Positions 1,593 to 49,536 of a stretch of DNA of 64,000 bases are shown in pieces. Source of the stretch: Parietichytrium sp. I65-24A (Eukaryota > Sar > Bigyra > Thraustochytrida > Thraustochytriidae). Both the position numbers and the translations under genes were made by a program. The notes under the pieces were generated by a model. That model saw only the letters and a program-made list of their open reading frames with translations. It made no database searches and was not told the DNA's origin. The stretch's first letter is position 1, and each line of letters begins with the position of its first letter. Location: assembly GCA_012862575.1 (NCBI GenBank), contig BLSF01000001.1, positions 1,226,002 through 1,290,001 on the forward strand. Direction: 5' to 3'.

Positions 1593-3329
1593 ATGAGGAA
1601 CAAGGTGCTAGACGCGGCCGTGGTCGCCGCGACGGCGTTCGAGGAGATGGTGCTGGCGAGCTTTGGGCCGATGGGATATGACCAGCTGGTGGTGGACGAG
1701 GTGGGTGGCATGGTTATCTGCAGTCACGGTGGCACGATGATCTCACAATTGCCTCTGGATAGGGTTCGCGACCCGGTCGCCAAATTGGTCTTGCGCTGCC
1801 TAAAGTCGTTTGGAGAGCGGAACGGGGATGGAGTGTCCGGACTGGCTGTCCTTTTGGCGGCGGGACTCGAGCTCGTGAAGCAGCGCTGGGACACTTTCCC
1901 GGACGCTTTTGAACTTGCTGCCTTTGGGGCTGCTCTTGGACAAGTGCGTCAGGAAGCTGTCTCATCAGCTCATCTAATTTGGCCGTCATGCGCTCTACCA
2001 TCACAGAACAAAGGTGGTGGCCCGAGTGTCTCAGGCCTTCTTCACAGAGCAGAGTTGTTGTCGAGAACGTGCCTCAGCGGGCAGTTCAGTCCAAAGGTTG
2101 AGAACGAGCTGGCAGCATTCACCCGTTCCTGGGTGGAGGAGGCTCTGCGAATGAATGGTGGCGACCAAGTTTTGGGTGGTCAGGACTTGTGTAGACGAGT
2201 AATTACAGAGTTGAGCACGGGCTTGAACGGGCGATGCGTAATTTGTGCACCGTCAACATCGACTTCAATTTCGCTGGTGGAAGATGCTTCATATCTCATT
2301 GACCGCCCCCCGCTTCATCGCATACAGGGAAAGGAGCACTTTGGGCTTCATGGTGCAGCGAGTGGGGACTCAATTTCGATGCTGGTACTCTTGTGCTCTC
2401 TATCGCCCATCAGAGCCTCCGATGATCAAGCGGTGAATGTCCGATCCGCGGAGGAATTGCAGAAGTTAGTTCTGTATCGCTCATGTCGAGTACGGGAAAA
2501 TCTGGAGGCCATTTTCAAAGCAGTCCCAGACCTGAGAGTTCTTGTCAGCACGGAAGCACTTGATGATCCTGTCTTGGAGATGACTCTGGCGAAGTCATGC
2601 GTTTCAGCACAGCTTGTACCTCCGCGACAAGCTGTTGAGCTTTGTCGCCGTGCTGGCGGTCGTCTAGTTGGAGATATCAAAGAATTTCTCCAGGATCCAA
2701 AGGAATACACTTGCCAGATCAGCGGCTGGGACGAGGTTCATCTCGGGGCAGGGAGTTTCGCGATTCGTTTGCGGGGCCTCACACGGCGAGACGGGGTTCA
2801 GAACGGCGGCTCCCCGCTTTGTCCTCAGTTCCTCCTGCGAGCCACCAGCGAAGGTCTCGCGCGGCAGTATAAATACTCGATTCGGCGCTTGCTTAAGCTC
2901 CTTTCCTTGTGGATCAACGACTTGGACATGGTCCTTTTGATGGGCGGCTGTGCCCCTGAAATTGCAGCATTCCATTTCTTTAAGAACCGGTGTAAGGAGG
3001 AGCGTATCCAACAAAAGACTTTGAGCACTGCGTTTGAGCTCGTTTCTCACGCCATGATGCGAGTGCCACTACGGTTGGCACGTGCTAGGGACCAGCGTGG
3101 TCTACCCTCCCGTTCCAACGCGCAGCTAATGCACAACATCCAAAATGCACGTTCTTCACAACTCGCTTTGCGGGACTGGGATTTGGAGTGGGTTCCAAAC
3201 GCCGTTGACGACCATGCCATTGAGCCTGCCGCGCTCAAACTTGATCAAATAGTAACTTTCGTTCAGCTCATGGAGCAAATTTGCCGCATCGACAGAGTGT
3301 GTGTTTTGAAACCGAAAGGTGTCCCATAG
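1593..3329 (+). CDS. Divergent group II chaperonin (TCP-1/CCT) superfamily protein
   Basis: 578 residues, close to the length of a CCT subunit. Landmarks in order are an equatorial GPMG loop (residues 25-28), a region matching the usual TNDGATIL but reading CSHGGTMI (43-50), NGDGVSG (77-83) where CCT has GDGTT, a poorly conserved apical domain, and MGGCAPE near residue 450 matching the C-terminal equatorial GGGA-E motif. The metal-binding Asp of NDGAT and the Thr pair of GDGTT are replaced, so ATP hydrolysis is probably impaired or lost. The degree of divergence recalls the MKKS/BBS10/BBS12 group, which serves BBSome assembly in ciliated cells, but I cannot assign it there. A highly divergent CCT paralogue is equally possible. 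It starts 19 nt after the CX9C stop. Confidence 0.72.
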   Translation: MRNKVLDAAVVAATAFEEMVLASFGPMGYDQLVVDEVGGMVICSHGGTMISQLPLDRVRDPVAKLVLRCLKSFGERNGDGVSGLAVLLAAGLELVKQRWDTFPDAFELAAFGAALGQVRQEAVSSAHLIWPSCALPSQNKGGGPSVSGLLHRAELLSRTCLSGQFSPKVENELAAFTRSWVEEALRMNGGDQVLGGQDLCRRVITELSTGLNGRCVICAPSTSTSISLVEDASYLIDRPPLHRIQGKEHFGLHGAASGDSISMLVLLCSLSPIRASDDQAVNVRSAEELQKLVLYRSCRVRENLEAIFKAVPDLRVLVSTEALDDPVLEMTLAKSCVSAQLVPPRQAVELCRRAGGRLVGDIKEFLQDPKEYTCQISGWDEVHLGAGSFAIRLRGLTRRDGVQNGGSPLCPQFLLRATSEGLARQYKYSIRRLLKLLSLWINDLDMVLLMGGCAPEIAAFHFFKNRCKEERIQQKTLSTAFELVSHAMMRVPLRLARARDQRGLPSRSNAQLMHNIQNARSSQLALRDWDLEWVPNAVDDHAIEPAALKLDQIVTFVQLMEQICRIDRVCVLKPKGVP

Positions 3330-6645: not shown

Positions 6646-8520
6646 TTAAGCGCACTTTGGGCACACCTGATCCTCACGAGAGAGTAATCCATGCTCCTTA
6701 CACCTCTTGAGCGCAAATGTATCGAACAGATTGCAGAGAAATTGCGAGATACGCTTTTGACCAGTGTTTTCGGCCTCCAGTTCATGTCCACAATCATCGC
6801 ACGGCCCAAGCGCTTCCTGTAGCCGACCGCATCGCGGGCACTTGAGCTGATTCAATCGCAAATTGTACTGCGCGATGTCGTCCCATGGGAATTTGCAAAA
6901 ATCCGTGTCTACAGTAATATATTCAAAGTCCTTCTTGAGACTTGCAATCATGTTCAAAAGCTTGTCGACTTGCTGCATTCGGAGGTGGTCGCCTCTGCCA
7001 AATAGCCACATCCCTGCCTCGGGCAATCGAGCATATTCGTTGGCTTGATCCCAGTCCCCCAAAAACATCGGAGACGGCCCAAAAGCTTCCCTAGACTTGT
7101 CGCAAGGTACCTGGCCGCCGCCGACTGCAACATTCGAGTCACCTCGCAGCAGGCCAATAACGTCCCGTGCAACCACTAGGATTTTGCACGAGACTGGGTC
7201 GGTGAGATTGTCCCCGAATTTCAAGAACTCGCGATGTGTATCCGGATCCCTCCAGCTCTGGAATCCTGCGCATTTGAGAAAGTTCGGTGCTCCGTGCATG
7301 GTCACGATGGCCGTCTGAATCGCTTTGTTGTCCAAGGGAAACTTCTCAAACTTTGTCATCTTGGCGCTGTCTCCTAGAAGAACTGCATCGGCCAAGTTGC
7401 TGAGTAATTTGTGCATTGTGACACAAGACTTTTGACGTAAAACTGGGGGGTTGAGTCCATAAAAGTGGACTGCAGCGCGCTTGAGCTTATTGAGAGCTTT
7501 TGAAAGCTTGTTAGGGATAGTCCACTCGAAAGACTCGCCGGGAAGTTTATCTGGTGGGATGTGACAGGTGAATTCCTCTCCGGTTTTGGGGTCGCGCAGG
7601 ACGCATACATCGCCTGGCTTCTTCGTCATTGGTATGTCAATTGTTGTGGTCTGAGAATCTCCATCCGCACGGATGGTCGCATCCATCATCTGCTCGATGG
7701 TTGCCCAGACATCTGGGCACGCCTCTACAACACGATCTGCTAATTTGTCGTCCTCCTCTGCCAACAGGGAGTGTCTGGTGGGGACCACGAGCGACACGAA
7801 ATGATTCTTTTCCGCTCCAGCCCAGCCGATGACGAGCGGGCAAGGCATATTGCCATCGGTATAGAGGCAATCCTGTGGCCGGTGGCGAAGCGGCAAAAAC
7901 ATTCCACACCCGAGAGAGTTTCCGCCGAAGAATTCAGCCTGCTCGTCCAACACAAGAATAGGCCTTCGCAGCAGATTCGCAAAACCCAGGATGTGCTCCG
8001 GCCCTAGCCAGCGGCTGGACCTGTCGGAATGCGTGGGCAGAGCCTCATCGCACACCGAAGCCCAGTAGCCTGAAAAGCTGAGGTCGTCCATGCCCTGGTG
8101 GAACACCGAGTGATAAAACTCCTGATGATTTTTCAACTCAGCGACAAGGCCTTCGCGCAGCACATCATAAAGCACCTCTTTGCCAACCAAGCACCTCGAC
8201 AGCGCGTGCGGCAGGCACGACCCATCGCTGTCCACGGTAATCGGCACGAGCTCCACGCCGAACGACTCGGCGAGCACCGCCAGCGTACCCGCTAGATACC
8301 CTTCCGCAGCGTGGTCCCGGAGGTGCTTGTCCTCGATTTCTAGCACTGTCGGGCAAAAGTCGAAAGCACGAAGCCCTTCAAGTTCTTCCATCGTGCGCCC
8401 AAGGCCGCCTTTCACGCTCAAACCATTTTCGCAGTCGTCGCAGCTCGCGTCTTCCACCTCCTGCACTTTCTCTTCGCCGTCCACAAGCAGCGCCCCAAGC
8501 ACGCGGCACTCAAAGCACAT
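6646..8520 (-). CDS. OTU-family deubiquitinase with PUB-like domain and zinc-binding tail (VCPIP1-related)
   Basis: 624 residues. An N-terminal CFEC...CDDC pair (residues 2-30) may bind zinc. The OTU core runs from about 88 to 246. It has the catalytic loop VDSDGSCLPHALSR (Asp97 and Cys102) and the catalytic His240 in EKNHFVSL; the spacing and the GFANLLRRPILVLD segment resemble human VCPIP1, the p97-associated deubiquitinase. Residues about 362-458 look like a PUB domain, which in other proteins binds the C-terminal tail of p97/Cdc48. The C-terminus has CPRC/CDDC (561-577) and a second C607-H610-C620-C623 site, both likely zinc ribbons. Inferred role: ubiquitin editing on Cdc48 clients in cytosol or ER. 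No intron is needed. Confidence 0.85.
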   Translation of the reverse strand: MCFECRVLGALLVDGEEKVQEVEDASCDDCENGLSVKGGLGRTMEELEGLRAFDFCPTVLEIEDKHLRDHAAEGYLAGTLAVLAESFGVELVPITVDSDGSCLPHALSRCLVGKEVLYDVLREGLVAELKNHQEFYHSVFHQGMDDLSFSGYWASVCDEALPTHSDRSSRWLGPEHILGFANLLRRPILVLDEQAEFFGGNSLGCGMFLPLRHRPQDCLYTDGNMPCPLVIGWAGAEKNHFVSLVVPTRHSLLAEEDDKLADRVVEACPDVWATIEQMMDATIRADGDSQTTTIDIPMTKKPGDVCVLRDPKTGEEFTCHIPPDKLPGESFEWTIPNKLSKALNKLKRAAVHFYGLNPPVLRQKSCVTMHKLLSNLADAVLLGDSAKMTKFEKFPLDNKAIQTAIVTMHGAPNFLKCAGFQSWRDPDTHREFLKFGDNLTDPVSCKILVVARDVIGLLRGDSNVAVGGGQVPCDKSREAFGPSPMFLGDWDQANEYARLPEAGMWLFGRGDHLRMQQVDKLLNMIASLKKDFEYITVDTDFCKFPWDDIAQYNLRLNQLKCPRCGRLQEALGPCDDCGHELEAENTGQKRISQFLCNLFDTFALKRCKEHGLLSREDQVCPKCA

Positions 8521-12458: not shown

Positions 12459-14306
12459 ATGGCGGCGTGGCCAGGAGCGCTGCGCAGGCAGAAGCGCCCC
12501 GCGCAGGAGCGGAAGAGCAACGACTTTGGTGCCTCTGTGTCTGCGCCGTGGGGGCGAAAATGGTTCGTGGCTGGTCCATCGCGAGGCCTAGTGGTCTTGA
12601 TGGTGACCATGGCGATGCTGGGGTACGTGAGCTTGCAACGCGCAATGTGGAAAGTAGACAGCGGGGCGGTGCTGTCGACGCCGAAAATGAAGTCGAAAGC
12701 TCGGGAAACGCCGAATGAATCGGTTTCCATGGGAGATGAGGAGGAGGACGGGGGGATGGTAGCATCGGCGCAGGAGCATGGGCCGGTGCACATCACGCAT
12801 GTGTTTAATACGTTCAAGGTGAAGCCTGACTCTGCGCTGTGGAGCGAACATGAGCTGGTGCAACTATCTTGGCGAGCGGCAGCGGAGTATGCCAGGGATC
12901 GAGGCATTGTGGTGGACTTTCTCGATGCTGTGCTTGAGAAAGACATTAGCTCCGTTCCTAAATTTGCCAGAACGCACATCCTCACGGACCACGTTGTTGA
13001 CCCTTTCAACAAACATCTACTTCCTACGATTGGGGAGATTTTCGGTGCTGGCAAAACACATGGACGAGGAGAGTACCTCGTGTACACGAACGCTGACATT
13101 GGCGCTATGGAGGACTTTTATGTCAAGGTGTGGGAGCTTGCTCATCGCGACACAGCATGTGAGCACGCGCAGAGGAGGTTGTTTCACAAGATTACAGAGA
13201 TGTTGAACTTTTGTTTGAACTTCCATGGAGAGGACAGCAAAGTTTCCAACCCCGAGCTCTGCCGGGCAGACATGGACGAGTACTACAAGCTCCACGGCGG
13301 AAGCCTCACACTATACCCCAAGGTGAAGAGGGCAGCAGCGATTTTGTACGTCCAAAGCAAGCTGAAGGCAATGAAGTCGCCCTCCACCGACTTTTTCACC
13401 TTGCAGAATTGGTACGAGGATGCGGGGGGTCTTGCGGAAGATGCCGAAACTGACATAGAGTCGATCGACGCCGTGATGGCCTACGAGTACAAGCCCTTCA
13501 AGGTATCGGAGCCTGATATTCAAGAGGCAGCTTTCACAATAACCCGCCTCGACTTGGTCGTCGATCGAAACAACCTTCCCCCAAGTGCTTCGGGGCTGAA
13601 AGCTTTTTTGCAATCCGCAAAGTCCCAAGTTCATCCCGGTAACGATTGCTTCGTCATGCCAAGAAGCAAAGTTCCGGATATGATCATTAAATCCCGCCAC
13701 CCACTTTCGTGGCGGCCGTGGGGAATGTGGATCCCCCCGGCCTTTGAGTGGGAGTTTGGCGATGAAGGCTTAGTTTGGCAGCGATTCGAAGGAACGAGCA
13801 CTTTGAACTATACTTTTCACCTTGGCGTGTCTGGACGTGTGGCGAAAGGCTGGATTGATCTCTTTAACCAACGTCCTCTGTTTATTCTCAAACTTGTGGC
13901 AGAGTGGAATCACGTAACGAATGGCAAGTACGCGAGTTTGTACTCGGGCCCAGCGTATTGCCAGGATGAGCGCTTGTACCGGCATTTTCATTTCTGCCAA
14001 AAATCCCCTAATGATATGCAATTTTGCCAAGGCAATGTACGATATGCGTGCGCAAAATATAACAATCCGCATCTACGTGATCCGTATAATTATGTACTTG
14101 CTTGTGAACGTATGATGCGTCGCGCTACTGAAAAGAGAGGCCAATACATGGTAGAGCCTTACTGCACTTTCTGCTCCAGCATTCTTGAAGCGCGGGATGC
14201 TCCAGCTACAAAGATTAAGTCTTTTCAAGCGAAATGCAACCCCAATTTTGAGCTGGTAGACTGCGTGCAGACTGGGAGGTGTATTTTCAGACACATCATA
14301 AACTAA
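12459..14306 (+). CDS. Type II membrane protein, possible Golgi glycosyltransferase
   Basis: 615 residues from the ATG at 12459. That start places a single hydrophobic anchor (about residues 34-52, GLVVLMVTMAMLGYVSLQ) after a short basic tail, the usual arrangement of a Golgi type II enzyme. The frame is open upstream to 12240 with a low-complexity acidic/Thr-rich leader. The luminal part contains a YLVYTNADIG segment, which resembles the strand-plus-acidic motif of nucleotide-sugar transferases, and later PLSWRPWGMWIPP and many Trp/Tyr/Cys residues near the C-terminus. I do not recognise a named family; the glycosyltransferase idea rests on topology and the TNAD motif. Sulfated-galactan-making algae need many such enzymes, but that link is inference. 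Confidence 0.6.
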   Translation: MAAWPGALRRQKRPAQERKSNDFGASVSAPWGRKWFVAGPSRGLVVLMVTMAMLGYVSLQRAMWKVDSGAVLSTPKMKSKARETPNESVSMGDEEEDGGMVASAQEHGPVHITHVFNTFKVKPDSALWSEHELVQLSWRAAAEYARDRGIVVDFLDAVLEKDISSVPKFARTHILTDHVVDPFNKHLLPTIGEIFGAGKTHGRGEYLVYTNADIGAMEDFYVKVWELAHRDTACEHAQRRLFHKITEMLNFCLNFHGEDSKVSNPELCRADMDEYYKLHGGSLTLYPKVKRAAAILYVQSKLKAMKSPSTDFFTLQNWYEDAGGLAEDAETDIESIDAVMAYEYKPFKVSEPDIQEAAFTITRLDLVVDRNNLPPSASGLKAFLQSAKSQVHPGNDCFVMPRSKVPDMIIKSRHPLSWRPWGMWIPPAFEWEFGDEGLVWQRFEGTSTLNYTFHLGVSGRVAKGWIDLFNQRPLFILKLVAEWNHVTNGKYASLYSGPAYCQDERLYRHFHFCQKSPNDMQFCQGNVRYACAKYNNPHLRDPYNYVLACERMMRRATEKRGQYMVEPYCTFCSSILEARDAPATKIKSFQAKCNPNFELVDCVQTGRCIFRHIIN

Positions 14307-16497: not shown

Positions 16498-19400
16498 ATG
16501 TCAAACTCATTCGCGGTGGGAGACCGGGTCGAGGCGCTGCTGGACGGTTGGCCGCAGTATTATGCGGGAAGGATTGCTAAGGTCAGCGGCGAAGGAGTGT
16601 TCGAAGTGCACTTTGATGACGGGGAGGTGGTCCCAGCAGTCCCGGTCAAGTGCATGCGCTGCGTGAAAACGATTGTGCCTGCAAAAGATGCCGCGTTTCA
16701 AATTGGCGATCGCGTCTCTGCAAAGGTGGGAGATTGGACGGAAGCTTTCAAAGGCATCGTCACCTCTGCTGCAGAGGAGCCCAAGTGCTACAAGATCAGC
16801 TTTGATGACGGTGAGGTCTTAAATTCTGTGGCAGAGGCTGAAATGAGCATAGATCCCCAGCAAATTCAATTTTCGCCCGGAGACAGGATAGAAGCAAAGC
16901 TAGAAGGATGGAAGAAGTATTTCCCGGGCAAGATCGTCAAAATAGCAGGCCGAGGCACATATGAGGCTCTCTTCGATGACGGGGAACATGTAGAGTTTCT
17001 TCCTTGGGACATGTGCAGAAAAGCGCGTCCAAAATTGTTCGGCCCGAATACTAGAGTCTTTGCAACAATACCGACGTGGAAGGTATATTACAAAGGGACT
17101 GTTCAGTCTGCCAATCTAAACGGAAGCTATGATATATTATTCGATGACGGAGAGATGAAGGAGGGCGTTGATGCGAGTTGTGTTCGCCAACTAGATAAAG
17201 ATGAGTCTATTACGCCTTTGTACAAACCCGGAGATAGAATAAAGGCTCAGCTGGCAACATGGAACGAGGCGTACTGGGGCGTCGTCACGGAAACAAAAAA
17301 TGACGGCACATATGGGGCAAAATTTGATGACGGCGAGATAGTCAAGGCATTAAAAGAGTGTGAAATTGTTCAGGTTGAGGAGCAAGCAATGGGTGACCAG
17401 TCTCTTCCTGTACCAGAACATGCCTACTTGTCCGGAACTAGAGTATCAGCGAAGATCGACGGCTGGGACCAGTTTTACGATGGCGTCATTACGAAGCTGA
17501 ACGAGGACGGGACATATTGCATCAAATTTGATGACGGTGAGGTCGTAGAGTCAGTGAATGAGGCGCAGATGAAGTCTCCACACCCAATGAAACCTGACGC
17601 TCCAAAAGTTAGCTCTAGAAGCCCCTCAGAAGCGGTCAAGCCTCATGCCTATGGATTCGGGAACCGCGTGTCTGCAAAGATCGACGGTTGGGACCAGTTC
17701 TATGATGGCGTCATAACGAAACTGAACGAGGACGGGACATATTGCATCAAGTTCGACGATGGCGAGGTCGTTGAGTCAGTGAACGAGGCGCAGATGAAGT
17801 CTCTACAGCCCAAGAAGCCCGAGGCTCCCAAAAGTATCCCTCGAAGCTCCTCAGAAGCAGTCAAGCCTCATGCCTATGGGTTTGGAAACCGCGTGTCTGC
17901 AAAGATTGACGGTTGGGACCAGTTCTACGATGGCGTCATAACAAAACTGAACGAGGACGGGACATATTGCATCAAGTTTGATGATGGCGAAGTCGTAGAG
18001 TCAGTGAATGAGACACAGATGAAGTCTCTACAGCCCAAGAAGCCCGAGGCTCCAAAGAGTAGCACTCGAAACTCCTCAGAAGCGGTCAAGCCTCATGCCT
18101 ATGGGTTTGGGAACCGTGTGTCTGCAAAGATCGACGGTTGGGACCAATTCTACGATGGCGTCATTACGAAACTAAACGAGGACGGGACATATTGTATCAA
18201 ATTTGACGATGGGGAGGTCGTTGAGTCAGTCAAGGAGGCACAAATGAAGTCTCTACAGCCCAAGAAGCCCGAGGCTCCGAAGAGTAGCACTCGAAACTCC
18301 TCAGAAGCGGTCAAGCCTCATGCCTATGGATTCGGGAACCGTGTGTCTGCAAAGATCGACGGCTGGGACCAGTTCTACGATGGTGTCATAACGAAATTGA
18401 ACGAGGATGGGACGTATTGCATCAAATTTGACGACGGCGAAGTCGTAGAATCAGTGAATGAGGCGCAGATGAAGTCTCTACAGCCAAAGAAACCTGACGC
18501 TCCAAAAAGTAGCTCTAGAAGCCCCTCAGAAGCGGTCAAACCTCATGCTTATGGATTCGCAAACCGTGTGTCTGCAAAGATCGACGGTTGGGACCAGTTC
18601 TACGACGGCGTCATAACGAAACTGAACGAGGACGGGACATATTGCATCAAGTTCGACGATGGCGAGGTCGTTGAGTCAGTGAACGAGGCGCAGATGAAGT
18701 CTCTACAGCCCAAGAAGCCCGAGGCTCCCAAAAGTATCCCTCGAAGCTCCTCAGAAGCAGTCAAGCCTCATGCCTATGGGTTTGGAAACCGCGTGTCTGC
18801 AAAGATTGACGGTTGGGACCAGTTCTACGATGGCGTCATAACAAAACTGAACGAGGACGGGACATATTGCATCAAATTTGACGATGGCGAAGTCGTAGAG
18901 TCAGTGAATGAGGCGCAGATGAAATCTCTACAGCCAAAGAAACCTGGCGCTCCAAAGAGTAGCTCTCGAAGCTCCTCAGAAGTGGTCAAGCCTCATGCCT
19001 ATGGGTTTGGAAACCGCGTGTCTGCAAAGATCGACGGCTGGGACCAGTTCTACGATGGCGTCATTACGAAGCTGAACGAGGACGGGACATATTGCATCAA
19101 ATTTGATGACGGTGAGGTCGTAGAGTCAGTGAATGAGACACAGATGAAGTCTCTACAGCCCAAGAAGCCTGAGGCTCCAAAGCCAGAGTTGAAAAAGTCT
19201 GTAGAAGCGGTCAAGCCTCATGCCTATGGATTCGGGAATCGCGTGTCTGCAAAGATCGACGGCTGGGACCAGTTCTACGATGGCGCCATTACGAAACTGA
19301 ACGAGGACGGAACCTATTGCATCAAGTTTGACGATGGCGAAGTCGTAGAGTCAGTGAATGAGGCACAGATGAAGTCTCTACAGCCCAAGAAGCCCGAGGC

Positions 19401-22400
19401 TCCAAAGAGTAGCACTCGAAGCTCCTCAGAAGCGGTCAAGCCTCATGCCTATGGATTCGGGAACCGTGTGTCTGCAAAGATCGACGGCTGGGACCAGTTC
19501 TACGATGGTGTCATAACGAAACTGAACGAGGATGGGACGTATTGCATCAAATTTGACGACGGCGAGGTCGTTGAGTCAGTCAAGGAGGTACAAATGAAGC
19601 CTTTGCAGTCTAAGAAGTCTGAGACTCGAAAGGCAGACTCGAAGAAGTCTGTAGAAGCGATCAAGCCACATACGTACGGATTCGGGAACCGTGTGTCTGC
19701 GAAGATCGACGGTTGGGACCAGTTCTACGATGGCGTCATAACAAAATTAAACGAGGACGGGACATATTGTATCAAATTTGACGATGGCGAGGTCGTTGAG
19801 TCAGTCAAGGAGGCGCAGATGAAGTCTCTACAGCTCAAGAAGCCTGAGGCTCCAAAGTCAGACTTGAAAAAGTCTGTAGAAGCGACCAAGCCACATACGT
19901 ACGGATTCGGGAACCGCGTGTCTGCAAAGATCGACGGTTGGGACCAGTTCTACGACGGCGTCATAACGAAACTGAACGAGGACGGGACATATTGCATCAA
20001 ATTTGACGACGGTGAGGTCGTAGAGTCAGTGAATGAGGCACAGATGAAGTCTCTACAGCCAAAGAAGCCCGAGGCTCCAAAAAGTATCCCTCGAAGCTCC
20101 TCAGAAGCGGTCAAGCCTCATGCCTATGGATTCGGGAACCGCGTGTCTGCAAAGATCGACGGTTGGGACCAGTTCTACGATGGCGCCATAACAAAACTAA
20201 ACGAGGACGGGACATATTGCATCAAATTTGACGATGGCGAGGTCGTTGAGTCAGTCAAGGAGGCACAGATGAAGTCTTTGCAGTCTAAGAAGCCCGAGAC
20301 TCGAAAGTCAGACTCGAAAAAGTCTGTAGAAGCGACCAAGCCACATACGTACGGAATCGGGAACCGCGTGTCTGCAAAGATCGACGGCTGGGACCAATTT
20401 TACGATGGCGTCATAACGAAACTGAACAAGGACGGGACATATTGCATCAAGTTCGACGACGGTGAGGTCGTGGAGTCAGTTGAAGAGGCACAAATGCAAC
20501 AAATTAATAAGGGGACTGTGCAAGATATGCGCGAAAATACGGGGGAAGCAACGAAAGTGCCTCAGCCCGCCACCAAATCGGCAATTGAGGTACAAAAACC
20601 ATCGTTAAATGGCGCCTCGGACGCAACAGCATCTAGTATCAAGACTGTTGAGGAAGCTAGCCAGATAAGTTGCTCCCCTATATTTGCAGTTGGGGAGGAG
20701 GTACACGTTAAGCTTTCTGACTGGCCAGAAAAGCAGATGGGCAAGATTTTGAAGGCAAATGCTGATTGTTCCTATCGGGTCGAATTTATGGATGGGCAAA
20801 AGGTGGATCGTATTTCCCAACATTTTATCAACAAAGTATCATCTGAGACCAGCTCACAGCTTAGGTTTGACGAGACGAGCTCAGGAGACCAAGCAATACC
20901 TGATGTGAGGACTCCGCAAGTCAGCACTCCCAAAATGCCGAAGGTTGAATATAAAGCTCCGCAACCAGAATCGATTGCCGTGCTTTGCATTCGCTTTCAG
21001 GGGATCATGAAGGCTAAGGCTCGAAATAGGGACGGAGGTATGGATCCATTGCGCACCTGGCAATTCGTTCAAAAATGCACGAAAACCAAGGGTATAGAAT
21101 CAATGTCGCAAGACACATTTGGGCTCCTACTTGAGGAGGTGGGTTTAGGCTCCACAAAGGAAAATGAAAAACTTGCCCTTGCGAAGTCAATTGGAGTAGA
21201 CGAGTCTTGGTCAATTCCGTCAGAATCATTTAAAGCGTATTTGGAAAACATCTGTGGCCCACAGTCCCCAGCAAACGATTTGGAGGTGAAATTTCGGAAA
21301 TTGATTGCCAGTGGAGCAAGTATTCCACAAACTTTCCGAGACATTGATACGGATGGTTCGGGGACTGTGACAGCCAGGGAGCTCATAGAACTTTTTAAAC
21401 GGGTTGCGAATGAGCCAATAACGATTTGCGCTGCCCAGGCATTGATTGCCGCTTTCGACACTAATGGCGACAAATTGCTTGACGAGTCAGAGTTTGTCAG
21501 ATTATGTTTCCCAGACTACGGCATGCATGTAGCCACACCATTTGGTCCTCTCTTCATTTCATGCGATGCAAACATGTCCGTAGGGGACCTGAAATCCATC
21601 ATTCGCAAACGAGCAGGAATTGTTCTTGGCGCGAAAGCTGCTCAAGCTCTTTCGGGATCAAGATTTAAGCTTTTCAAACATTTTGGGACCACCCCTCTGG
21701 AACCGCCGTTTTGCTATTCTGCAGATAAAGTTGTCAGTGCCATTGAATGCGGGGAACAGATATTCCTAGTCTTGAACGAGCAGAAAGGAGACTTTCGGTA
21801 TGCTCCTTTCACTGATAGGGAGCAGAAAGCAGTCGTAGCAGAGCAGAAAGAGGAAAATGACCAGACACTTCACCGAGATACTGGTCTGAAGTCTGCGCGA
21901 GATCGCCCGAAACCCAAGACTCCTCAGCTCGGCAAGAAGCGCTGGGAGCTTTTGTATAAAGGTGAGGATAAGAGCCTCAAAATAGCCCTACAAAGGGTGG
22001 AACAAGTGTTTGACGTGCTTGATGACAATAAGAGCGGGTTGTTATCGAGGAAAGAAATACTTGCTGGCGTGCAGAAACCTCAAGTCAGAAAGCTTCTCCG
22101 AGGTTCCCAGCATCTGCAAAGATTTTACGAGTCTCCGAAAAAGGTACTCCAAGATGTGGACAGGGAGCTAGGCTTTGTAGAATTTGCAACCCTGATCATC
22201 CCATCTGCAAGCTCTGCTTCCAGTTCATCAAGTGGAGAAGCAAAGGCGAAAGATCCGAAGAAGGGAACCCTTCCTCGAAACGCTCAGTTAGATGAAGAGA
22301 GAGATACCTCTTCGAAGTGGAAAGCGTATGTAGATCGGGCCAAAACTGTACAGGCGTTTAAGGCAGAATATGTGCAAACCGGGGCTCAGGAGTTGAGTAT

Positions 22401-24276
22401 GCGTTTTGAGAAGAGTCTAGGCGCGGAGCAGATGAAGACACTTTCACAGGCTGGACGAGCTCGGTTGTTGAGCACTGCGGATCCAGCAAGAGATATGAAA
22501 GTTGGCACCGAGTGGGAGGATGAAGAGCAAAAGCGGATCTTACAAGGCGAAGATCCCAAGGAGACGCAGCAGTGGGTCAATTCACTCTCAAGCAAGCGAT
22601 GGTTAGGGCTTCGAGAAGATACTCAGACAAATGAGAGTGAAGACATTCGCAAGGAGTTTGAAAAGCAGTTCGGGCTCAGCTCTGACGCCTCTCTATGGAA
22701 GCCTGAGGATGTGAGGCTGTGGGTCTGCAAACGGCTCGAGCTCGGAGATTATTCAGGGTTCTTCGCGTCATTTACAGGTGGCGACCTTCTCCGCATCGAG
22801 ACTAGAGACGATCTCGTGCAGCTTGGAGTCAACGGATACAAGCATTTGCCAAGACACGGCTTACACGTGAAAAAGATCCTCGCCCATATTTCCCAACTTC
22901 GAGAGTGGCGCCGGCTCAGCCGGGAGAGTTCTGGGCAAGGTCCTGAATGTTGGCTGGTTGGCGATGTTCTCGATTGGCTGAGTCGAGACCTAGAGGTTGA
23001 TTCAGAAGTACGCAAGTCATTTCGCGAAAAGTCTGTTGATGGTTGTCTTCTGGGCACTTTAGAGGATTCCGATTTGGAGACTATCCTGGAAATCCAAAAT
23101 CGTGGCGTCCGAATGAAGATTTTAGAAGGAATCAACGAGCTTTTCCCAAAACGCCGGAGAGGACAGGCAAAGAGTTCTTTTGTGCACGAGAGGCGCCCGC
23201 GATTTTGGACGAGCAGCGAAGTCTGTGCATATTTAGACTCTTGCTGCCCATCGATCAATGCTAAGGCCTTGACTTCAGACCCTGACGCTCCGCTTACAGG
23301 TTCACGCCTGTTCGAGGTGTACTCTGTCCGTGACCTTCTCGAGCAAGACCCGTTTCGTCAACATGTGCACGATGTGCGGGTAGCAAGGGAGCTTTTAAAG
23401 GCAATATTCCAGCTACGCGAGGAAGATGATGGCGAAAGGAGCGTAAATAAAGTTGTACTTGATGCAAGGCAGCACCAAGACCCTGACGCAATGATTTTGG
23501 AAGACATTCATAATGATCAAGTTGAAAACACCCCACGTGGGTCAGGGTCTAACGCCGTGAGAGCTCTCAAAAGCCAGAGTTCAAATCAGAACTTGATCTC
23601 GGACGTTTCTCGTCAGGAGGCGAGCGAAGCCATTCACGACTTACTTGAGCTGGTTTCTCCGCAATCCCGAAGTGGTCCAAGAGCTTCACGTGGTCCACTT
23701 CATGTGCCTGCTGGTGTGCCTGGCGTCAAGTGCCTCAAGGTTCTTCAAAATCATTTGAAAAGTCGGCAAGATACCGAGCAAGTTCTCGACACTTGGTTCG
23801 ACGAGTATCGCGGGAGCATGTCTCGAGACGAGCTGTGGTCGTGTTTGACTCATAATCTTTTCCGCCCAAATGGAAGTGTTTTACCCCATGGAACTTTTGA
23901 TCGGATGTGGCGGGACTGTTTTAATCTTGACGACGATGATTCGATCCAGCTTTGGGAATTCAAATCGATGATTTTAGAGTTACCCAAACCAACCGAGGAG
24001 GTGCTACGTGCCGACAGTTGCAACGAAGCGTATCGGCGGTATTCAGCAACTCTGTCTGCTGCAATAAGCAAAGTTCGATTTGCGGATTACAAAGCTGCTG
24101 CAAGGCCGAAGAGTCAGGAGCATGCAAAACTCGTCAACCGTTTAGCACAGAAAGTTCAAAGCATTAAAGCTGAGGCCATCAGCTCTGGTGAGTTGAAGCA
24201 CTGCGCTGATCGTAGACTCGTACGAGATATTCCAGTTTTAGAAGCAGAGTGGGACAAAGCGCTGCTTGGAGTGTAA
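16498..24276 (+). CDS. Giant repeat scaffold: 20 Tudor/SH3-like repeats, EF-hands, three SAM-like domains
   Basis: A single uninterrupted frame of 2592 residues. Residues 1-315 hold five diverged copies of a barrel motif (GDRVEA...GW..YY.G.I....G.Y...FDDGE). Residues 316-1335 hold 14 nearly identical 75-residue copies. One more diverged copy lies near 1395-1445. The motif resembles Tudor/Agenet/DUF4537-type SH3 barrels. After a linker come two EF-hand loops (1617-1628 DTDGSGTVTARE and 1654-1665), a possible ubiquitin-like fold (about 1682-1765), a third EF-hand (1842-1853), and three SAM-like domains (about 2065-2135, 2150-2215 and 2236-2310). A degenerate EF-hand (DDDDS...E) lies near 2477. 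Inferred role: Ca2+-responsive oligomeric scaffold, possibly binding chromatin or methylated proteins. I know of no described protein with this architecture. Confidence 0.9.
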   Translation: MSNSFAVGDRVEALLDGWPQYYAGRIAKVSGEGVFEVHFDDGEVVPAVPVKCMRCVKTIVPAKDAAFQIGDRVSAKVGDWTEAFKGIVTSAAEEPKCYKISFDDGEVLNSVAEAEMSIDPQQIQFSPGDRIEAKLEGWKKYFPGKIVKIAGRGTYEALFDDGEHVEFLPWDMCRKARPKLFGPNTRVFATIPTWKVYYKGTVQSANLNGSYDILFDDGEMKEGVDASCVRQLDKDESITPLYKPGDRIKAQLATWNEAYWGVVTETKNDGTYGAKFDDGEIVKALKECEIVQVEEQAMGDQSLPVPEHAYLSGTRVSAKIDGWDQFYDGVITKLNEDGTYCIKFDDGEVVESVNEAQMKSPHPMKPDAPKVSSRSPSEAVKPHAYGFGNRVSAKIDGWDQFYDGVITKLNEDGTYCIKFDDGEVVESVNEAQMKSLQPKKPEAPKSIPRSSSEAVKPHAYGFGNRVSAKIDGWDQFYDGVITKLNEDGTYCIKFDDGEVVESVNETQMKSLQPKKPEAPKSSTRNSSEAVKPHAYGFGNRVSAKIDGWDQFYDGVITKLNEDGTYCIKFDDGEVVESVKEAQMKSLQPKKPEAPKSSTRNSSEAVKPHAYGFGNRVSAKIDGWDQFYDGVITKLNEDGTYCIKFDDGEVVESVNEAQMKSLQPKKPDAPKSSSRSPSEAVKPHAYGFANRVSAKIDGWDQFYDGVITKLNEDGTYCIKFDDGEVVESVNEAQMKSLQPKKPEAPKSIPRSSSEAVKPHAYGFGNRVSAKIDGWDQFYDGVITKLNEDGTYCIKFDDGEVVESVNEAQMKSLQPKKPGAPKSSSRSSSEVVKPHAYGFGNRVSAKIDGWDQFYDGVITKLNEDGTYCIKFDDGEVVESVNETQMKSLQPKKPEAPKPELKKSVEAVKPHAYGFGNRVSAKIDGWDQFYDGAITKLNEDGTYCIKFDDGEVVESVNEAQMKSLQPKKPEAPKSSTRSSSEAVKPHAYGFGNRVSAKIDGWDQFYDGVITKLNEDGTYCIKFDDGEVVESVKEVQMKPLQSKKSETRKADSKKSVEAIKPHTYGFGNRVSAKIDGWDQFYDGVITKLNEDGTYCIKFDDGEVVESVKEAQMKSLQLKKPEAPKSDLKKSVEATKPHTYGFGNRVSAKIDGWDQFYDGVITKLNEDGTYCIKFDDGEVVESVNEAQMKSLQPKKPEAPKSIPRSSSEAVKPHAYGFGNRVSAKIDGWDQFYDGAITKLNEDGTYCIKFDDGEVVESVKEAQMKSLQSKKPETRKSDSKKSVEATKPHTYGIGNRVSAKIDGWDQFYDGVITKLNKDGTYCIKFDDGEVVESVEEAQMQQINKGTVQDMRENTGEATKVPQPATKSAIEVQKPSLNGASDATASSIKTVEEASQISCSPIFAVGEEVHVKLSDWPEKQMGKILKANADCSYRVEFMDGQKVDRISQHFINKVSSETSSQLRFDETSSGDQAIPDVRTPQVSTPKMPKVEYKAPQPESIAVLCIRFQGIMKAKARNRDGGMDPLRTWQFVQKCTKTKGIESMSQDTFGLLLEEVGLGSTKENEKLALAKSIGVDESWSIPSESFKAYLENICGPQSPANDLEVKFRKLIASGASIPQTFRDIDTDGSGTVTARELIELFKRVANEPITICAAQALIAAFDTNGDKLLDESEFVRLCFPDYGMHVATPFGPLFISCDANMSVGDLKSIIRKRAGIVLGAKAAQALSGSRFKLFKHFGTTPLEPPFCYSADKVVSAIECGEQIFLVLNEQKGDFRYAPFTDREQKAVVAEQKEENDQTLHRDTGLKSARDRPKPKTPQLGKKRWELLYKGEDKSLKIALQRVEQVFDVLDDNKSGLLSRKEILAGVQKPQVRKLLRGSQHLQRFYESPKKVLQDVDRELGFVEFATLIIPSASSASSSSSGEAKAKDPKKGTLPRNAQLDEERDTSSKWKAYVDRAKTVQAFKAEYVQTGAQELSMRFEKSLGAEQMKTLSQAGRARLLSTADPARDMKVGTEWEDEEQKRILQGEDPKETQQWVNSLSSKRWLGLREDTQTNESEDIRKEFEKQFGLSSDASLWKPEDVRLWVCKRLELGDYSGFFASFTGGDLLRIETRDDLVQLGVNGYKHLPRHGLHVKKILAHISQLREWRRLSRESSGQGPECWLVGDVLDWLSRDLEVDSEVRKSFREKSVDGCLLGTLEDSDLETILEIQNRGVRMKILEGINELFPKRRRGQAKSSFVHERRPRFWTSSEVCAYLDSCCPSINAKALTSDPDAPLTGSRLFEVYSVRDLLEQDPFRQHVHDVRVARELLKAIFQLREEDDGERSVNKVVLDARQHQDPDAMILEDIHNDQVENTPRGSGSNAVRALKSQSSNQNLISDVSRQEASEAIHDLLELVSPQSRSGPRASRGPLHVPAGVPGVKCLKVLQNHLKSRQDTEQVLDTWFDEYRGSMSRDELWSCLTHNLFRPNGSVLPHGTFDRMWRDCFNLDDDDSIQLWEFKSMILELPKPTEEVLRADSCNEAYRRYSATLSAAISKVRFADYKAAARPKSQEHAKLVNRLAQKVQSIKAEAISSGELKHCADRRLVRDIPVLEAEWDKALLGV
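17443..20500 (+). repeat. Coding tandem array, 14 units of exactly 225 bp
   Basis: The marker GTGTCTGCAAAGATCGACGG (with variants) recurs at 17443, 17668, 17893 and so on to 20368, always 225 bp apart with no indel. Units differ mainly at synonymous sites and in the linker (SRSPSE, TRNSSE, LKKSVE and similar). Blocks 900 bp (four units) apart are more alike than neighbours. Confidence 0.97.
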
Positions 24277-24470: not shown

Positions 24471-26987
24471 TCAGCCAAGCAAGAATGAGTCGGTGTTTTC
24501 GATTGCGTACAAGATTTTGCTCCGCATCACTTCTTCCGATATGTACTCCGGAAAGACCAGTTGGTTGAAACAAGAGTGTGCTTTGCACAAGCTCGTTGGA
24601 TCAAGGTCCTTATTCAACGTCAAATTGAGAGGCGGGTCCAACCCATCCACTGGCAACTTTGACGTTCCAGTTGCGAAACGTAGCAGCAAAGCTTTCTCCT
24701 TTGCTTCCATTTCTTTGAAAATTCGCCAAAACCAGTGTACTATAATGTGGTTGGCATCAAAACCTCCCTGAAATACACAGGTCTTTCGAATACTCTGAAT
24801 GTCGATAACGGGGAGGCCATTCCAGAGCATATCAAGTTCAGGAAGCTCAAAATTCGCTATCCGCAGGGTTTCCTCTGGAACCACCTCAAAAAGGCCATAG
24901 CGAATCGCCTCAACTTGGGATTTACAGGACTCAACAGCTCGCCATTTTAGCATGAGGTCAACATACTGCGCCTTGTTGTCGTCGTCCACCTCAATGTTCC
25001 GCCCACCAGGAATGAGGTCTACGATGACTTTCTCTTTGCTCGACGAACCCGGCAAGGGGTCTGTGGTAACACAAAACTCCTCAAAGAGAATGCCATCTAT
25101 AGAATTCTCAAGCATCCACTCCAAACTCTTCACAAACGTTGGATCGGTGTGACGAAGGTCTCCAATGTCAATTTGCAAACCGAATATTTGCTTGAACAAT
25201 GTGACACTAAAGTGCACATCCACAAGCTGTCTATCAATGATGGCCTTACCCAAGAAGCGGCCAACAAAATAATACCATGAGCTCAGCAACTCTGCGGAGT
25301 TTGGAGTACCATCTAGCGAATCTGGACCTTTGGCATTCACCTTGATGTCACGAGCATGGTCATCACTGACCTTCTCAAACAGGTTTGTCGTAGGAGAAAA
25401 GAGAAGTCTGGATATTTCCAAAAACCAGTCCTTGCCTATTCCGCCCGCATCGATACCCTCTTCTCCAACATACTCAACTTTGATCCGCTTTGTGAGATCT
25501 TCGTACGGAATATGCATGAGCTGATAGAATGAGTCCCACAGCATTTGTTGACGGTTTATGGAGAGACGAGTGACATGACCCGGACCTTTCGGAATGTCCT
25601 TCAGCATGATTCGATTGAACTTGAAGCGCTTCTTCTTAAACTCGACGATTGGGTCCACGGGGCCGTCCATAATCGCTGGGCGCTCAAGAACAGTTACCTG
25701 TGTCATGATGTTGACATACACTGGTTGGTCGCTGACGAGTTCATTCCAAACTTGCGCCCAATCAAGAACAGGCTTCTCTGGATCAGATTTCGGCACCGGA
25801 GGGGTGCGAAAGTCAACATATTCGCTGAAAGGGCTCTTTCCGATAGAATTGGACGCAAGAACCTTGTAATGATATGGTGTCTCTGGCTCAAGCCCGGTCA
25901 AGATCAAGAAATTTTCAACTCCTCCATGAACAAAGTGAATTTGTTCATCTTTTACCGCGCCACCGTAAAGTTCAAAGGACTCGACCGCACTGCCATTCGC
26001 CGCGGGGGTAGCCCACTGTAGGAGAACCCGGTCCGGCCGAAGAAAACCCGTCTGAATAAAGGGAGCTTTCGGCCTTCCAGGTGGTTCTGGAAGCGTGGCG
26101 ATCACGGCAGATTGCGGGGAGAACTCGCTCCAACCTTGTCTGTTACGGCCTCGGACTTGAAATATATATGGGACGCCGCACTGGATGTTGTTCACTTCAT
26201 ACTCTAGCGTATCGGCGGAAATGTGCCCAAGGGACTCCCAAACCCTGGACACTTTTTTCCTGGGGTCAAGCCTGCAATCCTGGGCCGCTGGCCTGGTTGC
26301 AGCGCACCCGTCGCAAACGCCAGAGTCTTTCGAGTTTCCGGTCTCGCATGCCAGGCATTGCCATGCCATCTCCTGCTCGGGTGCAACGCGATATCGCACT
26401 TCGTACACGTCAACAAGCCCCAGCACCGCCTGCCACTCAATTTTAATCGACTCGGCATGCTGCTTGCCCTTTGCAACGGGGCTCTCTGGGACAGCTGGAA
26501 TCGTCAAGCTGGCCATGACGTCATCCGAAGAAATGTCGGTTTGTTTCCCTGCAGCTCCGCCATGTACAATTGTTACATTGCCGACCTTATCGACTCGTAC
26601 TCCAGTCGGGAAGCCAGTTCCTTGGTTGTTGCTCATGCTCCCGCTGCTCGTATGCTGATTCGTTCCTCGACGATTCTGCGGGCTGGCTGGGACGCCGCCT
26701 CCAAGTCCCTGCTCTGCCAGCATCTCCTGCTGTTGCATCTGAGCTACCTTGATTGCAGCTTCGTCCAGCTCGATCCAAATAAACTTTTCACGCTTGGGGC
26801 CATCCTCGACTCGCACTCTGACCGGCGCGCAGTAATATACTTCATTTACTGCAAAATGCACAGAAACCTTTTGCCGCACGGCATCGCCGCCACGAAGTCG
26901 AACATCGCTGCCGCTCTCCCCGCTCCTCTTGTCCGATGCATCGTCCGATGAGGCGTATGCATCCGCTTTGCTGGCCCCGCCGCCCAT
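24471..26987 (-). CDS. HECT-type E3 ubiquitin ligase with myristoylation signal, FN3 and RanBP2 zinc finger
   Basis: 838 residues. The N-terminus MGGGASK fits the N-myristoylation consensus (Gly2, Ser6, Lys7), suggesting membrane attachment. Residues about 165-300 form a fibronectin-III-like domain that encloses a RanBP2-type zinc finger (W209, C211, C214, C225, C228; WQCLAC...VCDGC). A second FN3 domain covers about 303-397. The HECT domain fills the rest, with LSINRQQMLWDSF, the YVGEEGIDAGGIGKDWF segment of the N-lobe, and the catalytic Cys806 in LCKAHSCFNQLVFPEY near the C-terminus. HECT enzymes take ubiquitin from E2 onto this cysteine before passing it to substrate. It is convergent with the scaffold gene, 194 bp away. 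No intron is needed. Confidence 0.93.
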   Translation of the reverse strand: MGGGASKADAYASSDDASDKRSGESGSDVRLRGGDAVRQKVSVHFAVNEVYYCAPVRVRVEDGPKREKFIWIELDEAAIKVAQMQQQEMLAEQGLGGGVPASPQNRRGTNQHTSSGSMSNNQGTGFPTGVRVDKVGNVTIVHGGAAGKQTDISSDDVMASLTIPAVPESPVAKGKQHAESIKIEWQAVLGLVDVYEVRYRVAPEQEMAWQCLACETGNSKDSGVCDGCAATRPAAQDCRLDPRKKVSRVWESLGHISADTLEYEVNNIQCGVPYIFQVRGRNRQGWSEFSPQSAVIATLPEPPGRPKAPFIQTGFLRPDRVLLQWATPAANGSAVESFELYGGAVKDEQIHFVHGGVENFLILTGLEPETPYHYKVLASNSIGKSPFSEYVDFRTPPVPKSDPEKPVLDWAQVWNELVSDQPVYVNIMTQVTVLERPAIMDGPVDPIVEFKKKRFKFNRIMLKDIPKGPGHVTRLSINRQQMLWDSFYQLMHIPYEDLTKRIKVEYVGEEGIDAGGIGKDWFLEISRLLFSPTTNLFEKVSDDHARDIKVNAKGPDSLDGTPNSAELLSSWYYFVGRFLGKAIIDRQLVDVHFSVTLFKQIFGLQIDIGDLRHTDPTFVKSLEWMLENSIDGILFEEFCVTTDPLPGSSSKEKVIVDLIPGGRNIEVDDDNKAQYVDLMLKWRAVESCKSQVEAIRYGLFEVVPEETLRIANFELPELDMLWNGLPVIDIQSIRKTCVFQGGFDANHIIVHWFWRIFKEMEAKEKALLLRFATGTSKLPVDGLDPPLNLTLNKDLDPTSLCKAHSCFNQLVFPEYISEEVMRSKILYAIENTDSFLLG

Positions 26988-47919: not shown

Positions 47920-49536
47920 TTATCTTTGTTGTTTACGCTTTTGCACGCAGACATAAACAAGAACAAAGGCGAGAAAAACGCCTAGCAGGCTCCCGCCAAC
48001 TGCAAGGCCAGTTTTCAATTCAAGGTTTTCTCCGGATGGTGCTGACGACGTATTGGGAAGGGTCGGGGTAGCTGTCGGGCTAGAGGTGGAGGAGGTGGTG
48101 TCGTGTGAAGGCTGTGAAGTTGGGGCCAGCGAATCTTGCGAGGCACCTCTCTTCAGTGCTACGAATGCAACGGCGTTGTTGAAGATCTTGCTCACCCCGC
48201 CGCCGGAAGAGAAGTCGATTGCGGAAGAGTTCCCGCCCTCCCATTTCGAGCCCCAGGTCAAAATCGTACCATCGCGTTTCAACGCAGCATACGCAGAATT
48301 GGTGCTGTACACAAGATGAACCCCACCGTTGGAACTAAAATTTAAAGGTGGAGTAACATCGCCAGTGCTCTCCCAAACCGCCAATGAACCGTCGAGCTTG
48401 CTAGCTAGGATTGATTTGGGAGTGGAGCTGATGGAGGCCACAAATCTCAACTCCGCCTCGCCAATGGAAATTGAACCCCACGCCACCACCGAGCCGTCAT
48501 TGCGTAGTGCAGCGATTGCTGTATCTGTTGCGACAAGGAACCGAGCTCGTTTGTCCTGAGCAAAGTCTATGTGCGAGCTATTCCCGCCCTTATCAAGCCT
48601 ACCCCAGGACACGACAGAACCGTCGCTCTTTCTGGCCGAGAAGGCACTTCGAGACGCAACGACTTGCTCAACCTGGGAAGATAGCTCGGCTTGCACAGAG
48701 GCGGAGTTGCCGCCAAAGTAGAGGTCTCCCCATGTGACTACGCTCTGGTCCGACAGGTAAGCTGCGAACCCTCTTTCGGTGACGATGATATCCATGGCTC
48801 CGCCCCGCTCAGTAATGCGACCTTCCGGAAGGGGGTAGTCATTATGCTCTTCTCCCCACATTTGCACGGACCCGTCCAGCATGATGGCAACGAACGTCCC
48901 CGCGTCGTTGGAGAAGACCTTGCTAACGCCACCCCCTGCCTTCTCATTCACCGTTGTAGAATCCCCGCCTTCGTAGAGGTTTCCCCACGCAACAACAGAC
49001 CTATCAACCGTGAGGCCCGCAAACGCCTTTTCATTGGAGAAGAGCTGCACGATTCCGCCGCCAGACGAAAAGTCAACTGTGGAAATGTCTGAGGATGGGT
49101 CTACTCCACCCCACTCCACCACTGTTCCGTCGCGAAGGAGGGCGGCGAATGCATGCCTGGTGGCCACGATACTGGTGGCTCCTTTTTCCAGAAGAGGGGC
49201 CACGCTGGTGCTGTTGCCGCCCGAGTTCGCATCCCCCCATGTCAGAACGCGACCCTCCAAAGTAAGAAGAGCGAAGGCAGACCGTGTGGCTATAATCTTG
49301 TCGACCTTGATCCTCTCGTCAATGTCATCCTCCTGCAGAGTCACTGTGGTGTCAGGATCGACGGGTTCTCCGGTGCACTGCCCGCCAGAGTACCGATCTC
49401 CCCAAGTGACAAGCACACTGTCAAACCTATGCGCCAACTCTCTGGATCCGCGTAGCTGCTGCGGTCTCGCCAGTGTCACTCCTGTGCTCGCGCTGCACTG
49501 CCAAGCCAGCAAAGCCAACGTGAACCTCCGCCACAT
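47920..49536 (-). CDS. Single-pass surface protein with RCC1-like beta-propeller repeats
   Basis: 538 residues from the ATG at 49536, which opens a signal peptide (WRRFTLALLAWQCSASTG); the frame extends to 49623 without a better start. About nine repeats of the pattern FAAL..DGSVVTWG..GGNS......GGGV..I follow, the RCC1-like propeller repeat common in algae and bacteria. A Thr/Ser/Pro-rich stalk follows (SLAPTSQPSHDTTSSTS...), then one hydrophobic span (VGGSLLGVFLAFVLVYVCV) and a short basic tail (QKRKQQR). This is a type I membrane layout: propeller outside, seven-residue tail inside. Inferred role: cell-surface adhesion or recognition; a signalling role would need a partner, as the tail is too short for a kinase. 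Confidence 0.82.
   Translation of the reverse strand: MWRRFTLALLAWQCSASTGVTLARPQQLRGSRELAHRFDSVLVTWGDRYSGGQCTGEPVDPDTTVTLQEDDIDERIKVDKIIATRSAFALLTLEGRVLTWGDANSGGNSTSVAPLLEKGATSIVATRHAFAALLRDGTVVEWGGVDPSSDISTVDFSSGGGIVQLFSNEKAFAGLTVDRSVVAWGNLYEGGDSTTVNEKAGGGVSKVFSNDAGTFVAIMLDGSVQMWGEEHNDYPLPEGRITERGGAMDIIVTERGFAAYLSDQSVVTWGDLYFGGNSASVQAELSSQVEQVVASRSAFSARKSDGSVVSWGRLDKGGNSSHIDFAQDKRARFLVATDTAIAALRNDGSVVAWGSISIGEAELRFVASISSTPKSILASKLDGSLAVWESTGDVTPPLNFSSNGGVHLVYSTNSAYAALKRDGTILTWGSKWEGGNSSAIDFSSGGGVSKIFNNAVAFVALKRGASQDSLAPTSQPSHDTTSSTSSPTATPTLPNTSSAPSGENLELKTGLAVGGSLLGVFLAFVLVYVCVQKRKQQR

Follow-up and report, generated by a model that had tools for sequence, protein, structure and literature searches.

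The window, by which we mean the whole 64,000-nucleotide stretch of Parietichytrium sp. I65-24A DNA analysed here, carries on its forward strand an uninterrupted ATG-to-stop frame of 2592 residues (16498..24276), along which relatives align. The label "single-exon" attached to it in the original prediction means an open frame and nothing beyond. In the encoded protein, an N-terminal Tudor half is followed by EF-hands and then by SAM domains, two of them clear and a third, SAM-like one weak. Among the best 25 of 32 Pfam families for the whole protein, Tudor_5 (E 3e-76), Tudor_3 (1.5e-70), EF-hand_7 (3.4e-12), and SAM_1 (1.6e-08) all exceed their cut-offs. A separate Pfam scan of residues 1-300 and 1355-2592 agrees with this result and adds a third EF-hand near residue 1842. 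CH_2, DUF4988, SLT_beta, and similar matches are taken to be array artefacts, because their cut-offs were passed only by summed repeats and by no single stretch.

Several other frames lie in the window. On the opposite strand, a HECT ubiquitin ligase that also has fibronectin type III domains (24471-26987) adjoins the 2592-residue frame, and an OTU-type protease-like protein (Pfam E 9e-06) is encoded at 6646-8520. A divergent TCP-1/cpn60 chaperonin (Pfam E 4e-20) occupies 1593-3329, and a 615-residue frame at 12459-14306 has no Pfam match at E 0.001. RCC1-like repeats (Pfam) are encoded on the reverse strand at 47920-49536, and a hydrophobic segment close to the C-terminus of that protein was recognised by eye. 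A reverse-transcriptase-like frame was also recognised by eye at 61781-63574; an X in its translation indicates an ambiguous base within it.

Most known Tudor barrels are readers that occur singly or in pairs in proteins of chromatin and RNA. The 2592-residue protein contains 20 of them by a barrel-derived profile, and a motif count gives the same number. All are encoded on the forward strand. Five divergent barrels (residues 5-290) come first: B1-B2 (residues 5-116; 16510..16845, barrel profile), B3-B4 with an RKARPKL-containing linker between them (residues 125-229; 16870..17184, tree, alignment, and AlphaFold model), and B5 (residues 242-290; 17221..17367, barrel profile). They are followed by B6-B19, an array of 14 near-identical 75-residue units (residues 299-1348; 17392..20541, profile and repeat analysis), and by one more divergent barrel, B20 (residues 1396-1444; 20683..20829, barrel profile, 45.6 bits). 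Each array unit consists of an acidic barrel of about 49 residues and a basic K/P/S-rich linker of about 26 residues, and at the DNA level the array is seen as a tandem repeat at 17452-20496 with a period of 225 and 13.5 copies. In Pfam the whole protein scores 251.5 bits for Tudor_5 (cut-off 31) and 233.3 for Tudor_3 (cut-off 25.8), and residues 1-300 alone reach 74.1 bits for Tudor_5. These matches are not due to chance, because Tudor_5 has 57 matches in the organism's own genome and none across 14 control genomes.

Structure prediction could have spoken against the barrel reading; instead, the AlphaFold model of B3-B4 (pLDDT 80.5) matched the Tudor folds of PHF1, PHF19, PHF20, SGF29, and UHRF1, and the unit is a five-stranded SH3-like barrel. 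The best structural matches of the barrels are largely chromatin readers. The repeat unit is therefore a Tudor/SH3-like barrel by Pfam, alignment to 53BP1, and the B3-B4 model, and the predicted number of 20 holds. The expectation of many identical barrels was right as to the 14 units of equal length, but these are near-identical only, with 9 distinct barrel protein sequences among the 14.

The methyl-lysine aromatic cage of 53BP1 is presumably formed by W1495, Y1502, F1519, D1521, and Y1523. By sequence alignment, the residues at these five positions are I, Y, F, D, and E, so that Y, F, and D are kept, W1495 is replaced by I and Y1523 by E, and a full 53BP1-type cage is absent. A tryptophan is conserved in 47 of 48 distinct barrels, and an alternative cage built on it would be possible. 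The modelled arrangement of the two barrels B3 and B4 is also unlike that of 53BP1 (rmsd 9.2 over 99).

Comparison of synonymous and nonsynonymous change indicates how the array has been maintained. The 14 units have 14 distinct barrel DNAs, and across the 91 unit pairs the barrels have a mean Ka of 0.027 and a mean Ks of 0.69 (up to 1.48), while the linkers between units have Ka 0.34 and Ks 0.72. With the edge units left out (B7-B18), 35 of 50 barrel codons vary and only 5 of 50 residues. Varying columns at the three codon positions number 9, 7, and 37 in barrels and 12, 13, and 19 in linkers. The array is thus strongly selected, since synonymous divergence averages 0.69 while barrel Ka is only 0.027, and neutral expansion would not give this pattern of variation. 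Because the fold admits other sequences, as in B1-B5, the units presumably must all display one surface and so offer equal binding sites. The units are related in a mosaic fashion: unit 2 pairs with unit 6, and unit 3 with unit 7, at Ks 0.14, a pattern suggestive of exchange among copies.

Charge alternates along the array. Barrel charge is -4 to -5 in all 14 barrels, and linker charge is +2 to +4 in 13 of 13 linkers; with alternative unit boundaries the ranges are -5 to -6 and +3 to +5. Linker charge is kept though 18 of 25 linker positions vary. In P0002, a protein of the thraustochytrid Hondaea fermentalgiana, the five internal linkers of a six-unit array carry +1 to +3. Averaged over linkers, charge amounts to 0.00 in P0004 and 0.25 in P0005 and falls below zero in P0003 and P0006; P0007 has no negative barrel among its seven. 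Charge alternation belongs to the two long arrays and is not family-wide.

The part of the protein beyond the barrels begins with a mostly helical region (predicted, with weak conservation) at residues 1480-1599 (20935..21294), N-terminal to a canonical EF-hand pair (21346..21492) with loops DTDGSGTVTARE (1617-1628) and DTNGDKLLDESE (1654-1665). The Pfam span of the pair is 1611-1669, and in a model of the C-terminal part its fold matches the EF pair of ACF7. A third loop, DDNKSGLLSRKE (1842-1853; 22021..22056), was located by Pfam and alignment. The Ca2+-binding loops proposed for this protein are borne out: the two loops of the pair are canonical in all four family members (described below), with Ca2+ binding predicted from loop sequence, and the third is retained in three of four, being missing from P0002. 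Between the pair and the third loop, alignment reveals a conserved region at residues ~1672-1776 (21511..21825) with a weak ubiquitin-like signal: its PDB profile match is a ubiquitin variant at E 1.4, Pfam ubiquitin reaches 0.045 in one of four members, and pLDDT is low. A doublecortin-like appearance of the region, which would imply microtubule binding, was noted by eye; doublecortin is absent from its Pfam and PDB profile matches. We claim neither a doublecortin nor a ubiquitin identity for what may be at most a weak resemblance. Further on lies a family motif, ETQQWVNSLSSKRWLGL (2022-2038; 22561..22611), found by alignment of relatives; it sits within a Pfam MgtE_N match at 1976-2055 that scores 24.0 bits against a cut-off of 25.9 (E 5.8e-05).

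SAM domains are of a kind that often self-associates, and in polymerising examples (Ph, DGK-delta, Shank, TEL) the mid-loop and end-helix form the interfaces. SAM1 (residues ~2061-2140; 22678..22917) is supported by Pfam SAM_1 (4.8e-06) and PDB profile matches, and SAM2 follows at residues ~2145-2222 (22930..23163); the Pfam spans are 2066-2135 and 2150-2215. Both match SAM domains by sequence, and SAM2 adopts a clear SAM fold in the C-terminal model, for which the match list of the VIA-align structure search is dominated by SAM2; fold and sequence together identify SAM domains here. The original count of three SAM-like domains stands for these two, but the third (residues ~2226-2310; 23173..23427) is weak and below the Pfam cut-off (SAM_PNT E 0.0027, 18.1 bits against 24). 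Against single TEL/ETV6 SAM chains its three-row profile reaches E ~0.8-1.4 only, and lower values (to 6e-06) were obtained only with fusion or multi-TEL constructs. The protein ends in a predicted helical region (~2409-2592; 23722..24273; terminal sequence LEAEWDKALLGV) with no Pfam match at E 1. This region is common to P0004 and P0005 and absent from P0002, and an EF-like loop in it is unconserved.

Searching with residues 1-345 found 8 proteins, including P0002, P0004, and P0005; the same residues scanned against viral contigs gave two pattern-matching stretches, neither of them confirmed. Homologues of the C-terminal part were sought twice, with only the ~8000 candidates sharing most words being scored, and none emerged. 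Compared directly, the last 1113 residues align nearly end to end with P0004 (E 2e-159) and P0005 (E 2e-107) and at positions 9-751, i.e., the first two thirds only, with P0002 (E 7e-85); they give nothing at E 0.01 with P0003, P0006, and P0007. Like the 2592-residue protein, P0002, P0004, and P0005 have a barrel array with B3-B4, an EF pair, the weak ubiquitin-like region, the motif, and SAM1-SAM2. The B3-B4 module, an ETQQWVN-type motif, the EF pair, and SAM1-SAM2 occur in four of four members, scored on the same four proteins that define the family; the ETQQWVN...WLG motif is likewise present in all four, as a DTQQ variant in P0005. Since these three proteins have the same architecture, this is not a one-off protein. 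Barrel number by the barrel profile differs (20 here, 14 in P0002, 8 in P0004, and 9 in P0005), and P0002 is also unlike the 2592-residue protein in that it is without the third EF loop, SAM3, and the C-terminal tail. The 1825-residue P0002 carries the database name "Calmodulin", which is misleading for a protein with 14 barrels, EF-hands, and SAM domains.

A tree of 52 barrels groups B3 with one barrel from each relative (support 95/90) and does likewise for B4 (100/99), so that both have clear one-to-one counterparts across all four members. Six Hondaea units form a group of their own (99/96). The 14 array units share a branch that includes one Hondaea barrel and is not well supported (97/76), the tree having few columns. 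We read this as an ancestral B3-B4 pair and a conserved C-terminus, with arrays extended separately, which for the 14-unit array is likely.

The original prediction knew of no described family with this domain order. None was seen among the open-licence PubMed Central papers listed for it, coverage that leaves subscription journals mostly outside, but a conserved family does exist in P0002, P0004, and P0005. In the same literature, a thraustochytrid combined with a Tudor domain gave nothing, "Labyrinthul" with a Tudor domain gave only diatom DNA methyltransferases, and stramenopile with a Tudor domain gave no paper on such a protein by title. Judged by sequence, the protein belongs to a conserved and selected family in which known domain types appear in a new combination, undescribed within the literature searched.

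Other barrel proteins are encoded in the organism's own genome (42.5 Mb, 172 contigs). The full protein had at least 16 matches there, including its own gene (18 of 39 candidates were scored). The C-terminal part had six, of which the five besides its own gene were at E 9e-04 to 7e-03, and it has no strong second copy. A scan for paralogues covered ten genomic stretches with 11 frames. One of these frames (L018) combines 21 barrels with no fewer than five EF-hand stretches. Seven barrels occur with TBCC (tubulin cofactor C) in one frame (L019, C34), and one barrel with TBCC in another (L026, C84). A long frame with seven barrels, EF-hands, and PUB (L020) includes the EF-hands of L021; ANAPC10, Cul7, HECT, and two barrels share a single long frame (L022 and L023); and the remainder include a UCH protease with one barrel (L024) and EF-hands with weak barrels (L025). 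A 2238-residue frame (L017, C16:64300-74200) has 17 barrels and a SAM domain, with deaminase-like and EF-like stretches below cut-off. Its domain order differs from that of the 2592-residue protein, and the deaminase-like stretch is just under the cut-off. The barrels in these frames match chromatin-protein models of Tudor and chromo-like type. Barrels excepted, no chromatin domain is among the families listed for the 11 frames (in one list, the best 25 of 26), and the domains listed as partners are chiefly of Ca2+-binding, tubulin-cofactor, and ubiquitin-related kinds. By guilt by association, these partners favour a cytoplasmic scaffold.

The genome also encodes a CEP162 homologue (L027 and L028, C106) with one such barrel, as in CEP162 of Hondaea (P0009), to which it is 47% identical (query residues 752-1515, E 3e-139). 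For CEP162 with a Tudor domain, open-licence PubMed Central papers yielded only a mouse gene-expression dataset. Radial-spoke matches are present in the genome (E 2e-34) and in none of 14 control genomes. Red algae are not known to have flagella, so the radial-spoke matches lead us to reject a hint in the original prediction that pointed to a red alga; the resemblance of the CEP162 homologue to that of Hondaea contradicts it as well. By these genome matches, a thraustochytrid or a close relation is the likely source.

Comparison with known systems places the protein beside several of them. PHF20, PHF1, SGF29, UHRF1, and 53BP1 are alike in barrel sequence and fold, but have one or two barrels each, unlike the 20 found here. 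53BP1 differs further in its two-barrel arrangement and in its cage, whose W and second Y are replaced in the present barrels; its family has C-terminal BRCT domains, and BRCT is not among the Pfam matches at E 1 for residues 1-300 and 1355-2592. MBT-SAM Polycomb proteins (Scm, SFMBT, L3MBTL), whose barrels are of the Royal-family type, also combine a barrel array with a SAM domain of similar fold, whereas the present protein has Tudor rather than MBT barrels, EF-hands, and two or three SAM domains; MBT is found neither in the Pfam pieces 1-300 and 1355-2592 nor among the best 25 of 32 whole-protein families. The Ca2+ sensors STIM1 and STIM2 have EF-hands and a SAM domain within one protein, and SAM1 and SAM2 have weak matches that include STIM chains (E 0.003-0.044). 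STIM is of transmembrane design with its EF-hand joined directly to SAM, unlike here, where the EF pair (ending at ~1669) and the third loop (ending at 1853) lie ~390 and ~210 residues ahead of SAM1, which starts at ~2061-2066. Consecutive SAM domains, with fold and sequence matches, are shared with the tandem-SAM scaffolds Liprin-alpha, SARM1, and Caskin; none of these is known to have a Tudor array.

We hold, with about as much belief as doubt, that the protein is a multivalent, probably cytoplasmic scaffold with 14 equivalent sites, SAM self-association, and a Ca2+ module, perhaps related to microtubules or the cilium. The 14 equivalent barrels would bind many copies of one ligand, either a cationic or methylated side chain on some partner or the basic linkers of the array itself. 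The tandem SAM domains would join molecules into oligomers, and Ca2+ on the EF-hands would alter scaffold assembly. We infer that SAM polymerisation, Ca2+ tuning, and condensate formation, all raised in the original prediction, may take part. The scaffold would be located in the cytoplasm, most likely at a microtubule- or cilium-related structure, a hint drawn by guilt by association from the barrel in the CEP162 homologues of Hondaea and of this genome and from barrels joined to TBCC in two paralogue frames. Against the scaffold stand the partial 53BP1 cage, a modelled two-barrel arrangement unlike that of 53BP1, charge alternation that is not family-wide, barrel matches that go largely to chromatin readers, and the absence from Hondaea of SAM3, the tail, and the third EF loop. 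A stricter version, in which a polymerising, Ca2+-sensing scaffold uses its 14 Tudor sites to count one modified ligand on a microtubule or ciliary structure, seems to us quite doubtful; if true, Tudor arrays would here serve outside chromatin, and this lineage would have expanded that use into several giant proteins.

Barrel folds closest to methyl-lysine and methyl-arginine readers (PHF1, PHF19, SGF29, and UHRF1 among them) and a SAM2 resembling those of Scm, PHC3, and L3MBTL3 would suit a nuclear reader, whose array binds methylated histones or chromatin proteins and whose SAM domains spread it in the manner of MBT-SAM Polycomb proteins. We regard this role as unlikely, because the 53BP1 cage is kept only in part, PHD, bromo, SET, BRCT, and MBT are not listed by Pfam for residues 1-300 and 1355-2592, and the paralogue frames, barrels aside, list no chromatin domain. 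EF-hands are unusual in chromatin reader proteins. A KRRR at residue 2218, one basic cluster in the 2592-residue protein, may be compatible with a nuclear location.

Variation of barrel number (20, 14, 8, and 9) around a conserved B3-B4 and C-terminal part could instead mean that the barrels are fixed-size beads of a spacer or elastic array, with B3-B4 and the EF-SAM ends doing the work. A spacer would have no need for a barrel Ka/Ks of ~0.04 between units while linkers drift, and the divergent B1-B5 indicate that the fold accepts other sequences, which makes this explanation rather improbable. We give still less credence to acidic barrels attracting basic linkers and driving condensation without an external ligand: the negative charge of all 14 barrels, the positive charge of all 13 linkers despite so many varying positions, and the similarly positive inner linkers of the Hondaea array agree with it, but P0004, P0005, P0003, and P0006 are without such alternation on average, and charge alone leaves the invariant barrel residues unexplained. 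That the frame is not one real protein, being unexpressed or spliced to shorter products, is hardly credible given an array Ka/Ks far below 1 and relatives that align at both ends.

Near-identical barrels, 14 in number and kept by selection in a conserved EF-hand/SAM protein, would offer a natural test of valency, and the protein also gives a lead on protein assembly in thraustochytrids. For the bothrosome and ectoplasmic net of these organisms, 18 candidate proteins are described, none experimentally tested (PMC12221091); the main text of that paper, the part of it considered here, has no match for tudor, SAM domain, EF-hand, or calmodulin. Elsewhere in the genome, a stretch at C22:533204-533314 scores 26.9 bits for Tudor_5, under the cut-off, within an open frame of 11,221 residues.
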